From contig WOYV01000050.1 of NCBI GenBank assembly GCA_011620585.1, positions 1 through 64,000 on the forward strand: 64,000 nt of DNA, given 5' to 3'. Under the pieces are notes generated by a model. That model worked only from the letters and a program-made list of their open reading frames with translations. It did no database searches and was not told where the DNA came from. Source of the stretch: Draconibacterium sp. Its GTDB lineage: Bacteria > Bacteroidota > Bacteroidia > Bacteroidales > Prolixibacteraceae. Position 1 is the stretch's first letter. Each line of letters begins with the position of its first letter. The position numbers and the translations under genes are program-made. This document shows, piece by piece, positions 13,591-18,492 of the stretch.

Positions 13591-15066
13591 TCAAATATTA
13601 ATTCCTCTGAAAAACCGGTTAACCAAACCTTCCATATCTTCCGATATTTTCAGAAAATAAGTAAGAAAAAGATAGACAAGCGAAAAAACCGCACTTCGCA
13701 GTAAAATATCGGGAAATAAGGCGAGCTGAGGAACCAGAAACGATGCTCCCACAGAAAGGGCAAAGACAAGAACTACATACAGAAATTTACTGGTAAAAGG
13801 TTGCATTCCGAATTTTACTTTTACAAAAAGGAATTTCATAAGATTATTACATAAAAATGCCAGCGCAATAGCCGCAGCTGCTCCAACAATTCCCCAGGCC
13901 GGAATAAATACAAACATCAGTGCAGCCATTATACCAACTAGAATAAGTAATAACCACAGCGCCATTCGGTAGTGTTTTGAATAACTGATAATATGACCGT
14001 TTGCCCCGGTTGCCATATCAATTAAATACCCCAGTCCAATAAAGAAAATCACCCACTTACCATCCGCATAATCAGGCCCGAGGATCTCAAGAATATTGTC
14101 GATGTTGATCCAGATGCCGCCAAACAAAAAAGCGCCAATGATAAACTGGTTGATACAACTTTTACGGTAAATATCTTCTATCGTTTTAAGGTCGTTATTT
14201 TTAAAAGCATCGGCAATCAGCGTACCGGATATCCTTAGCAACGTGCGCGAAGGGATCACCACCAGTGTACCAAAATAAAAGGCAATGGTATACACCCCGG
14301 TGGCACTCAAGCCCATCACCTGGTTGATAATGATTTTATCGATCTGAAAAACGATACTGCCCCCAATTCCGGCTAAAATACTGTAAAGAGCCACACTGAA
14401 CATCTCGCGTTTTAATCTTTGATCCATAAAATTGAGCTGTGGCCTAAAGTTCAGTTCTTTCTTAAACAAAAGGTAAAAAAAGAGAAAAGCCCCTTTCAAA
14501 CTTATGGCTGCGGCATACGCCAAAATCAGGCTATGTGGGCTTAGCCACCCAATGATATAGAGTAACAGGACCAGCAGGATTAGAGCGCGTTGTACAAACT
14601 CGGTCAGCAATGCCCCTAAAACGGCATCGTACAACATTTTATTAAAACTATCAAGAAACGTAAAAAGAAGGGCCAGGAAGGTTAAAGGCACCAGCAGGTT
14701 TACATATTCGGCAAACAAAGCCGATTTTTCGAGGTTGCTCTCCACCAGCCAGGGCCTTATCAGCCAAAAGGTGATCAGAAACAACACAAACCCTGTAAGC
14801 ATGACCATAAAGGCGATAAATACAAAACCGTTGTGCCCCTTTTCCTTGTCGCGAAACCGCGGGAACAAACGCGCGGTAACGCCATGAAATCCCAGGGCGG
14901 AAAACTGCGCAAACAAGCCGGACCAGGCCAGCAGCAAAGCAAATAAACCTACAATTTCGGGGGTCAGGTAATTGGGATAAATATAGGCGGTGGTGATAAA
15001 ACCAATTATAACACCCATATATGACCAGATAGCGCCCTTAATAGATTGTTTGATGATGATTCCCAT
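13591..15066 (-). CDS. Polysaccharide flippase (Wzx/MATE-like)
   Basis: Many predicted TM helices; IKQSIKGAIWSYMGVIIGF N-terminus; polysaccharide context. Confidence 0.8.
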   Translation of the reverse strand: MGIIIKQSIKGAIWSYMGVIIGFITTAYIYPNYLTPEIVGLFALLLAWSGLFAQFSALGFHGVTARLFPRFRDKEKGHNGFVFIAFMVMLTGFVLFLITFWLIRPWLVESNLEKSALFAEYVNLLVPLTFLALLFTFLDSFNKMLYDAVLGALLTEFVQRALILLVLLLYIIGWLSPHSLILAYAAAISLKGAFLFFYLLFKKELNFRPQLNFMDQRLKREMFSVALYSILAGIGGSIVFQIDKIIINQVMGLSATGVYTIAFYFGTLVVIPSRTLLRISGTLIADAFKNNDLKTIEDIYRKSCINQFIIGAFLFGGIWINIDNILEILGPDYADGKWVIFFIGLGYLIDMATGANGHIISYSKHYRMALWLLLILVGIMAALMFVFIPAWGIVGAAAAIALAFLCNNLMKFLFVKVKFGMQPFTSKFLYVVLVFALSVGASFLVPQLALFPDILLRSAVFSLVYLFLTYFLKISEDMEGLVNRFFRGINI

Positions 15067-15169
15067 CCTCGCTGATTTTGCACCAAAAGTAACAAAACGA
15101 GCCTATTTTTAAACCAGTATCTTAAAAATGTAATAAAGCTGATGCCCACGCCCCTGCCGCAAGCCTTCC

Positions 15170-15230
15170 GGCCCGTGTGCTACCGCGATAGAAACCAGAC
15201 TTGGCCTGAGAACCGCTAAGCATTGTCGCG
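15170..15230. repeat. 61-bp direct repeat, copy 1
   Basis: Ungapped match to 15689-15749, 55/61 identical by eye. Confidence 0.9.
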
Positions 15231-15280
15231 TTTTCAACTGCAACGTCATGGCAAGGGGACGCAGTGAGCGGCGCCACCCC

Positions 15281-15541
15281 GTCCCTGTAGCCTTTTTTGC
15301 TGTCCTGTTGTACTTTTGGGGCTTCCTGTTGCTTTTTTGGCGTCCCTGTTACCTTTTTTGGCGTCCTGTTGCATTTTTTTTGAATCCTGTTACAATTTTT
15401 GCCGTCCTGTTAAACAGGAAGGGGCAAAAACCCAACTGGGAGGGTAAAACTCCAACAGGAAGGGCAAAAGGCGAACTGGGAGGGTCGGAAACCAACAGGG
15501 CGCCCCGTATGCTTACAGGACGCCCCGGAGTGCAACAGGAC
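15281..15541. repeat. Mirror-symmetric array: 7 forward + 7 inverted ~20-bp units around a central palindrome
   Basis: CTGT cores at 15285,15305,15326,15346,15366,15387,15407; inverted AAC(A/T)GGG-type cores at 15413,15434,15454,15474,15494,15514,15534; centre tcctgtt-a-aacagga at 15405-15419. Confidence 0.9.
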
Positions 15542-15545
15542 AGTG

Positions 15546-15780
15546 CTATTCAGTCACTTCACCCCCGTTTCCCCCTTTTTCCCGGTTTTGTTTTCTCCAG
15601 TAGTCGCTCGTATAGCCTTTCATGCGCTTGGCGTCGTTACGGAAAACGTATTTCCCGGCTTCGCGAATCTCGTCGACCAGCGCTTTCAGGCCCGTGCGCT
15701 ACCCACATAGAAACCAGACTTGGCCTGAGAACCACGAAGCATTGTCGCGGTTGCGGATTGCGCGGGACCGCAATTGACCA
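15546..15780 (-). pseudogene. Frameshifted coding remnant: (ATMLRGSQAKSGFYVGSARA)-fs-(LKALVDEIREAGKYVFRNDAKRMKGYTSDYWRKQNREKGGNGGEVTE*)
   Basis: Two minus-strand frames join into one coherent peptide if a single base is restored near 15689; family unknown. Confidence 0.55.
15689..15749. repeat. 61-bp direct repeat, copy 2
   Basis: See copy 1; 519 bp offset. Confidence 0.9.
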
Positions 15781-15984
15781 TTCATTCAGAATACACAGGC
15801 AGCGGACGCGATGAGCTATGTTGTAAAATGGGAGGCCGGTGTCCGCTGCCGGGTAGCGCTTGTTTGATTTATGTACCATCGCCGGCTTTCAGGTATCATT
15901 TTTATGCCGATGGTATAGCACAAAAGTATTGCCATGCCCGTTTCAATGGCTATATTTGCCTTACAATCAAATACCCGTGTCCCA

Positions 15985-18492
15985 ATGAAGAAAAAATTAG
16001 TTCGTTACATTCTTCCGGTAATTCTTTTATTTATTACCTCTTCAATTTATTTTCTTCCGGTTCTCGAAGGAAAAGTCGTGCAACAATCCGATATTGTACA
16101 CTTTAGGGGTATGTCGAAATCGATGGTCGATTTTCGGCAGGAAACAGGCAAAGAAGCTCTTTGGACTGATGCTATGTTTAGTGGAATGCCCGGGTATTTA
16201 ATATCTACAGTATTCAAAGGCAATCTCTCAAAAGAAATAATCGATTTTGTACTTAAAATTCCTCGTCCGGTTAGTTATCATTTGCTTTTTTTAAGCTTGT
16301 TTTATCTGATGTGTATATTACTCGGGATGAACCCATGGTTGAGTTTTGCAGGAGCGCTGGCTTATGGATTTACCTCTTTCTTTTTTGTAATTTTTGAAGC
16401 CGGACACAATACAAAAGCACAAACAATTACCTATATCTCGTTGTTAATTGCGGGCATTCTTTTGGCTTATAAAAACAAACGTCTGGTCGGGGCACTGTTA
16501 AGTACGCTGTCCCTTTCGTGGATGATTGCCGCCAACCACCTGCAAATGACCTATTATGCAGGAATCCTGGTGCTGATTATTGCCATCGTGTATTTTATTT
16601 ATGCGGTTCGCGAAAAAACCGTGGTTGGTTTTCTAAAAAGCTCGGGTGTGCTGGCCGCTGCCGCCCTGCTCGCTGTAGGAATGAACCTCTCGACGCTCTG
16701 GCCCATTTATGAATACAGCAAAGAAACCATTCGCGGCAAATCGGAACTAACCAGCGATTTACATAAAAAATCGGATGGCCTGGACAGGGATTATATCCTG
16801 GAATACAGTTACGATGTGGGCGAAGCGCTGACGGCCTTTATTCCCCGGCTAAAGGGCGGAAGCATGAGGGAACCGCTGGGCGAGAAATCGCATGTATATG
16901 AACTGTTGGCCCGCGGGCAAAACAAGCAAAATGCATTGCAGATTGCCAATAGCCTGCCGCTGTACTGGGGAAGTCAGCCCATTGCCGGTGGGCCGTTTTA
17001 TTTCGGAGCGGTTTTGTGCTTCCTGTTTGTCTTTGGCTTGTTTATCGTGAAAGGAAAAGACAAATGGTGGATAGTAGCGGCTGTGATTGTTTCGTTTGCG
17101 CTTTCGTTGGGAAAATATTTCCCTTCGCTTTCGAACCTGATGATCGACTATTTCCCGCTTTACAATAAGTTCAGGGACGTAAAAAATATAATTGTTATAC
17201 AGGAATTTGCCATGGCGGTTATGGGCGTACTTGCCGTACATGCGGTATACAAGCGTGAAGTAAGTGATAAACAATTTAATAAGGCTTTGCTGTACTCTTT
17301 TGCCATTGCCGGAGGTTTGGCACTGATTGTTGCGGCGATTCCGGGTATTGCCGGAAGTTTTGCCGCAGCCTCTGATGCCCGCCTGGGACAGGCCGGCTGG
17401 CCCGAACAGCTAATTGACGCCTTGCATGCCGACCGGAAAATGGTGGCGCAAACCGATGCTTTCCGGACTTTTGTTTTCGTGGCGCTGGCTGCAGGAGCGC
17501 TCTGGGCATTCTGGAAAAAGAAACTGAAAGCGCAGTATGCCCTTGTTTTATGGGTGGTCTTGATTTTGGCAGATATGTGGCCTACCAACAAACGTTATCT
17601 GAATAGCGACATTTTTGTGAGTCCCCGCAAAATGGAAAATCCGTATACGATGTCGAAAGCCGACGAAGCCATTCTTCAGGATAAATCACTTTCATACCGG
17701 GTATTAAACCTTACCGTTAATCCGTTTACCGATGCCTCCACTTCGTACTTTCATCAATCGATAGGGGGTTATCATGCCGCCAAGTTCAAAAAGTACCAGG
17801 AGTTGATCGACTTTCAGATCAGTCCTGAGATTCAGAAAATAGCCGGTACGTTAAACAAAGGATTGGGCCCGGATCAAATCGGCGATCTTTTCAACAACGC
17901 ACCTGTGTTAAAAATGCTCAATACCAAATACCTGATCATCAACCCCAACGGCGCCCCGGTAAGAGACCCGGCGCCACTTGGCAATGCCTGGCTGGTGGAT
18001 GACTATGAAATTGTGGAAAATGCCGATGCGGAAATTGATGCGTTAACAGGATTTAATCCTGCAGGGAAAGCGGTTATCGACAAGCGCTTTGAACATTACG
18101 TTTCGGGCAAAACCTATCAGAAAAACGGGAGCATTAAGCTGGAAGTCAGCGACCCGAATTATTTGAAGTATAACTTCGATTCAGACGAAGAGCAATTGGC
18201 CGTGTTCTCAGAGATCTATTACGACAAGGGCTGGGATGCCTTTATTGACGGAGTGAAAGCGCCCTATTTCAGGGCAAACTATGTGCTGAGAGCGATGTCG
18301 GTTCCGGCCGGGAAACACACCATTGAATTTAAATTTGAACCCCGCTCCTATTTTACGGGGAACAAGATATCGTATATCAGCTCGATTGCCTTTGTTTTAC
18401 TGGCATTGGCTTACCTGGGAATGTATTTAAAAAACAGCAGGGGAATTTCAGGTACTAAACACAAAGAAGAACATGCATCAAAGACATCATGA
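15985..18492 (+). CDS. YfhO-like multi-pass membrane protein (glycosyltransferase-like)
   Basis: Many TM helices; VVQQSDIVHFRGMSKSMVDFRQETG N-terminus typical of Bacteroidota YfhO-like proteins; ATG at 15985 preferred. Confidence 0.8.
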   Translation: MKKKLVRYILPVILLFITSSIYFLPVLEGKVVQQSDIVHFRGMSKSMVDFRQETGKEALWTDAMFSGMPGYLISTVFKGNLSKEIIDFVLKIPRPVSYHLLFLSLFYLMCILLGMNPWLSFAGALAYGFTSFFFVIFEAGHNTKAQTITYISLLIAGILLAYKNKRLVGALLSTLSLSWMIAANHLQMTYYAGILVLIIAIVYFIYAVREKTVVGFLKSSGVLAAAALLAVGMNLSTLWPIYEYSKETIRGKSELTSDLHKKSDGLDRDYILEYSYDVGEALTAFIPRLKGGSMREPLGEKSHVYELLARGQNKQNALQIANSLPLYWGSQPIAGGPFYFGAVLCFLFVFGLFIVKGKDKWWIVAAVIVSFALSLGKYFPSLSNLMIDYFPLYNKFRDVKNIIVIQEFAMAVMGVLAVHAVYKREVSDKQFNKALLYSFAIAGGLALIVAAIPGIAGSFAAASDARLGQAGWPEQLIDALHADRKMVAQTDAFRTFVFVALAAGALWAFWKKKLKAQYALVLWVVLILADMWPTNKRYLNSDIFVSPRKMENPYTMSKADEAILQDKSLSYRVLNLTVNPFTDASTSYFHQSIGGYHAAKFKKYQELIDFQISPEIQKIAGTLNKGLGPDQIGDLFNNAPVLKMLNTKYLIINPNGAPVRDPAPLGNAWLVDDYEIVENADAEIDALTGFNPAGKAVIDKRFEHYVSGKTYQKNGSIKLEVSDPNYLKYNFDSDEEQLAVFSEIYYDKGWDAFIDGVKAPYFRANYVLRAMSVPAGKHTIEFKFEPRSYFTGNKISYISSIAFVLLALAYLGMYLKNSRGISGTKHKEEHASKTS

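Follow-up and report, generated by a model that had tools for sequence, protein, structure and literature searches.

The mirrored repeat array in the window (the whole 64,000-nucleotide stretch of Draconibacterium sp. DNA analyzed here) is probably the orphaned DNA-target half of a gene/array module, whose gene has been truncated. Gene and array are linked across the phylum Bacteroidota, the array keeps a fixed pitch while its word is free to differ, and the word co-varies with the C-terminal tail of the encoded protein. We found no earlier description of this module: neither a curated family nor a paper that we found covers it, and literature searches of open-licence papers returned no account of it.

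A mirrored array beside a truncated gene

The array lies in the gap between a divergent flippase gene and yfhO, as the first-pass annotation had placed it, and Pfam assigned both flanking genes. The features of the region are as follows.

13591-15066, minus strand: Polysacc_synt flippase (Pfam)
15163..15233, plus strand: left copy of a 71-bp direct repeat, 87% identical to the right copy
15284-15541: whole array, 14 cores (7 left and 7 inverted right) at 20-21 bp pitch
15284..15411, plus strand: left arm, 7 CCTGT(T/A) words at 20-21 bp pitch, spacers T-rich
15405..15419, no strand: center, TCCTGTT-A-AACAGGA, or CCTG-N5-CAGG (word, 5 nt, inverted word)
15413..15541, minus strand: right arm, 7 inverted words, mostly AACAGG with two AACTGG, at 20-21 bp pitch
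15496..15527, minus strand: terminator-like hairpin from gene-proximal array units 2 and 3
15546-15689, minus strand: 3' gene remnant, the last ~47 codons and stop of a ~246-aa family gene
15682..15752, plus strand: right copy of the 71-bp direct repeat, overlapping the truncation point of the gene remnant
15934-18492, plus strand: YfhO (Pfam)

The CCTG starts in the left arm fall at 15284, 15304, 15325, 15345, 15365, 15386 and 15406, with spacings from the center outward of 20, 21, 20, 20, 21 and 20 bp. The inverted AACAGGA/AACTGGGA cores of the right arm lie at 15413, 15434, 15454, 15474, 15494, 15514 and 15534 (spacings from the center outward 21, 20, 20, 20, 20 and 20 bp). The first-pass annotation had recognized the 7+7 mirrored layout at this pitch and the central palindrome, and both held up, as did its view that the window array is not coding; its core positions were exact for the right arm and 1 bp too high for the left arm. 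All 14 units chain in mirrored register in the real block, compared to at most 3 in 2000 dinucleotide shuffles of the region and at most 2 elsewhere in the window. The search of its own genome and relatives proposed in that annotation found the three-unit CCTGYW pattern only at the window array in the own assembly (six overlapping matches, compared to none with the reversed control) and a kindred array in 14 of 41 genomes, all of the same genus.

The right arm adjoins the gene remnant. Neither this remnant nor the 71-bp repeat appeared in the first-pass annotation, and the link of the array to a gene lay beyond its reach. The truncated end of the remnant falls at the 71-bp repeat, the two copies of which bracket the array together with the remnant. 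As a genome-wide element the repeat was rejected, the assembly holding just the two window copies. With its tail YWRKQNREKGG, the remnant belongs to the N type, which is paired with ACAGG arrays. An intact N-type reader was not found in the own assembly. Besides the window remnant, the genome has an intact family member on contig C66, whose array is TCCTGC, and also two PQLLE-family relatives that score 238 and 177 bits, above the NF052641 cut-off.

The gene/array module in Prolixibacteraceae

In several relatives, the array begins a few bases 3' of the stop codon of an intact ~246-codon gene. The array-bearing organisms belong to the Prolixibacteraceae (Draconibacterium, Maribellus, Sunxiuqinia and others). 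The pitch of the mirrored CAGG-clade arrays was 20 or 21 bp, with a mean of 20.36, and that of the TGCGAG/CTCGCA and ACGAG/CTCGT arrays was exactly 21. Mirror symmetry and the 5-nt center were kept across the words CCTGT/ACAGG, CCTGC/GCAGG, TGCGAG/CTCGCA, ACGAG/CTCGT and CGAG/CTCG; many other family members have direct arrays that lack mirror symmetry. Within an array, the units share the word and diverge in the spacers.

A strong terminator-like hairpin soon past the stop codon was present in 48% of 58 members, compared to 0.5% of shuffles, and about half of the 58 have no clear terminator ahead of the array. In the CAGG clade the hairpin is formed by array units 2 and 3, so that most of the array would fall outside the gene's transcript. 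The T run of the hairpin is degraded in the window and intact in relatives. One could read the mirrored array as a structured RNA, either a long hairpin that terminates or stabilizes the mRNA or a regulatory RNA. Both strands do fold better than shuffles (z = -5.7 and -4.8), and the hairpin made by the gene-proximal units 2 and 3 also speaks for an RNA. However, spacers opposite each other in register matched at 0.41, compared to 0.376 for other pairs, a slight excess barely above random; the hairpin and its T run come before the center, and a hairpin needs no fixed 21-bp pitch. Because of this weak opposite-spacer match, the many direct, unmirrored arrays and the 0 Rfam matches up to E=1, we consider an RNA role distinctly unlikely.

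A phylum-wide family with a two-turn pitch

Searches with NF052641 and with profiles built in this analysis recovered homologues. In profile comparisons with hhalign, groups A4 and A5 matched at E=1e-13, A3 and A5 at E=4e-7, and A3 and A4 at E=1e-4; judged by this similarity, the family groups share ancestry as one superfamily with PQLLE (NF052641). A member of the window subfamily scored 19.9 bits against the NF052641 cut-off of 80, which places it outside PQLLE itself.

The strongest period near the gene, within the 14-60 bp range, was 21 or 42 bp in 45 of 55 Bacteroidota loci, compared to 2 of 14 FN3-only control loci from the same search, and there weakly. The same held for 19 of 27 loci that were retrieved once the pattern was known, and TRF reported a 21/42-type array in 40 of the 55. 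Among distant homologues with gene coordinates, a slightly smaller set, the array was upstream of the gene in 34 of 35 detectable cases and downstream in 1. Array unit sequences are unrelated between loci, even between paralogues within one genome. As a control for 21-bp repeats, a random 400 kb of one family-bearing genome held four long arrays; two of these adjoin ~240-aa ORFs, which may be undetected family members. At L140:17617-18552 and L149:17338-18491, 42-bp arrays of alternating palindromes (e.g. CCAGAGCTCTGG, CTTCTTAAAAGAAG) lie beside ~240-aa ORFs that escaped the family profiles and are possibly more divergent members.

Tandem units that change in number would also be produced by replication slippage, which would make the array a neutral minisatellite. 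We regard this as extremely improbable: words that stay conserved while spacers differ within an array are the reverse of slippage homogenization, a single gene family keeps one pitch across unrelated words, and words are conserved between species.

The family protein is ~230-250 aa long, and its AlphaFold2 model is all-helical and confident (mean pLDDT 89, pTM 0.68). Searches of PDB and viral folds with this model gave no match at E < 0.001, and we found no known DNA-binding fold in it. Sequence searches of Pfam, PHROGs and PDB with the protein returned no family and no function, and plasmid and phage collections returned no match. All-against-all blastp of the family loci revealed no conserved neighbors within flanks of 1.5-4 kb.

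The word varies with the C-terminal tail

Residue 235 was N in 9 of 9 members with ACAGG arrays, H in 5 of 6 with GCAGG and R in 4 of 4 with GGAAAG. Among 193 protein columns scanned in 19 interspersed members, column 235 was the best predictor of the word (z=11.4), and the top seven columns all lie within the C-terminal tail; these z values are not probabilities, since the word classes used for the scan and the tree were assigned by eye and the members are related. The distribution of words over the protein tree requires 22 changes, compared to a minimum of 8. Two held-out members followed their tails. The nearest relative of L203 is of N type, its own tail is H, and its array is GCAGG, as the tail predicts; the nearest relative of L219 has ACAGG, its own tail is FWKRKNSRK, and its array is TACTCG, again as predicted. 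L205 to L207, which lie outside the column scan, likewise agree with the tail prediction. Tails of the GGAAAG type on separate branches of the tree use different synonymous codons, and the match between residue 235 and the word holds even where tails have diverged at most other positions. That the word varies from gene to gene with the protein tail suggests that each protein reads its own array.

Joint exchange of tail and array

Along the gene body, L154 is the closest match to L023; starting ~60-90 nt ahead of the stop codon and continuing across the array, the closest match to L023 is the H-type L152. Across members, array spacers track word class and gene bodies do not. The breakpoint and the spacers together show that tail and array have moved together, exchanged as one cassette, most clearly in this one case. 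Such co-movement is expected of a matched reader and target; adjacency alone could also produce it, and this linkage could be the source of part of the tail/word association.

Taken further, recombination within the gene might swap the last codons and the array together with the protein having no need to read the word, the array working by way of a different host protein or being inactive. The breakpoint right before the tail in L023 (relative to L154 and L152) fits such swapping, as do spacers that follow word class when gene bodies do not, and arrays that survive in genomes with no detectable intact gene. We nevertheless think it unlikely that linkage explains the whole pattern: residue 235 is matched in otherwise diverged tails, with differing codons and on separate branches, and words outlast spacers.

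Arrays without a gene

A gene-less array lies upstream of ileS (named by eye from the start of its sequence) at one site in four species. Between species, the words of the ileS arrays are 98-100% identical and the spacers 77-90%, with flanks mostly lower (words versus spacers, Fisher p 0.003 to 6e-5). In two of these genomes we detected no N-type reader: none of any type in G005, and only one of another type in G014. G004 holds six dispersed gene-less arrays (L253-L258), three of them 85-91% alike, and just a gene fragment of the window's subfamily. Arrays can thus multiply without the gene, as G004 indicates. Gene-less ACAGG arrays keep intact words in G004 and G005, where no intact family reader was detected, and in G014, where none of the right type was; candidate explanations are recent gene loss, an overlooked reader or an activity independent of the gene.

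The six G004 arrays, the three close copies among them and the solo arrays at several sites would also suit mobile or satellite DNA, with the array as a spreading non-autonomous repeat and the gene as its occasional cargo or helper; one PQLLE-type relative, in addition, adjoins REP-like hairpins. This reading is very unlikely in our view. The family protein has no transposase match and its loci no conserved neighbors, the ileS arrays occupy one site common to four species, and plasmids and phages gave no match.

A proposed reader and its address

We favor a reading, somewhat better than evenly supported by the sequence comparisons, in which the window block is the target half of the module and the family protein would use its tail to bind the arrays as double-stranded DNA. 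Tail-mediated binding, with assembly along one helix face, is proposed from co-variation, pitch and selection. Among the three possibilities raised in the first-pass annotation, a protein-binding array is the one now favored, because of the fixed two-turn pitch, the conservation of words while spacers drift, the tail/word co-variation and the terminator-like hairpin that precedes most of the array; the long hairpin RNA lost ground, and for a recombination or replication site we found no evidence, although the arrays do disperse.

In the proposed mechanism, the basic C-terminal tail would contact the word in double-stranded DNA, and at one word position Asn would pair with A and His with G. The two-turn pitch would align many protein copies on one face of the helix, and on mirrored arrays the copies would line both sides of the central dyad. 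The resulting nucleoprotein complex would form at the family protein's own gene, with the differing words of paralogues keeping their complexes apart. Its candidate roles are autoregulation, DNA folding or anchoring, and defence. More tentatively, and with a little less than even confidence, Bacteroidota chromosomes may carry mutually orthogonal sets of protein/array addresses, in which a short C-terminal arm, a simple residue code and cassette swaps would give rise to new addresses.

If this is true, the module is widespread, is described in no curated family or paper that we found, joins a gene to its target and would account for one kind of Bacteroidota intergenic repeat with a two-turn pitch, and evolution has already changed the DNA word of a protein by a few residues. 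The natural pairs N235/ACAGG and H235/GCAGG, in proteins that are ~90% identical, make the recognition code testable. The Draconibacterium orientale protein (tail YWRKIHRKQ) and its ~90% identical D. mangrovi relative (tail YWRKQNRKK) differ in this way.

Relation to known systems

Plasmid iterons are short sequence-specific words spaced about two helical turns apart beside their cognate Rep gene, and the words differ between related systems. The module likewise has two-turn words next to a gene that differ between relatives. It departs from iterons in that no similarity to Rep or winged-helix proteins was found for the family protein, plasmids gave no match and words switch as tail-and-array cassettes. 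An iteron/Rep replicon is not supported: no Rep initiator domain was found beside the array by Pfam or PDB fold matching.

In ParR/parC and omega/parS, multiple direct or inverted iterons seed nucleoprotein assembly, at a site upstream or downstream of the operon (PMC5016525). The module, too, has multiple direct or inverted words upstream or downstream of its gene. Unlike ParR/parC, it has no conserved neighbor such as an NTPase, and its all-helical ~245-aa protein has no structural match. Partition of the ParR/parC type was set aside, since no NTPase-like neighbor family recurs among the family loci within 1.5-4 kb flanks. By analogy, the module resembles iteron and centromere arrays in its apparent working principle, and the membership tests made for each placed it outside both.

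TAACTGA heptamer repeats are described as heptamers arranged head to tail ahead of numerous unrelated genes, in Beggiatoaceae, Cyanobacteria and some Bacteroidetes (PMC4679880). They share with the array an intergenic position and 7-nt words but are not reported to be associated with a single protein family or with spacing at two helical turns (PMC4679880).

In a type III toxin-antitoxin system, a repeat RNA binds and inhibits the protein encoded beside it; the family protein of the module has no Pfam match.

PQLLE (NF052641) proteins are homologous to those of the module, and the own-genome members have upstream sequence with a ~21-bp pitch, clear in one and weak by eye in the other. The window subfamily differs in its downstream array and basic tail and in scoring far below the PQLLE cut-off. 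A REP/RAYT element, defined by a Y1 transposase and short terminal palindromes, was rejected: the family protein has no transposase match, and REP-like hairpins lie beside some PQLLE-type members only. At one own-genome locus (L040, contig C112), the PQLLE-type gene is followed by a REP-like hairpin and then by an ORF that resembles an IS200/RAYT transposase, a likeness without Pfam support. The same PQLLE-type gene adjoins the C-terminal part of a Cas9-like protein (Pfam RuvC_III, E=2e-19).
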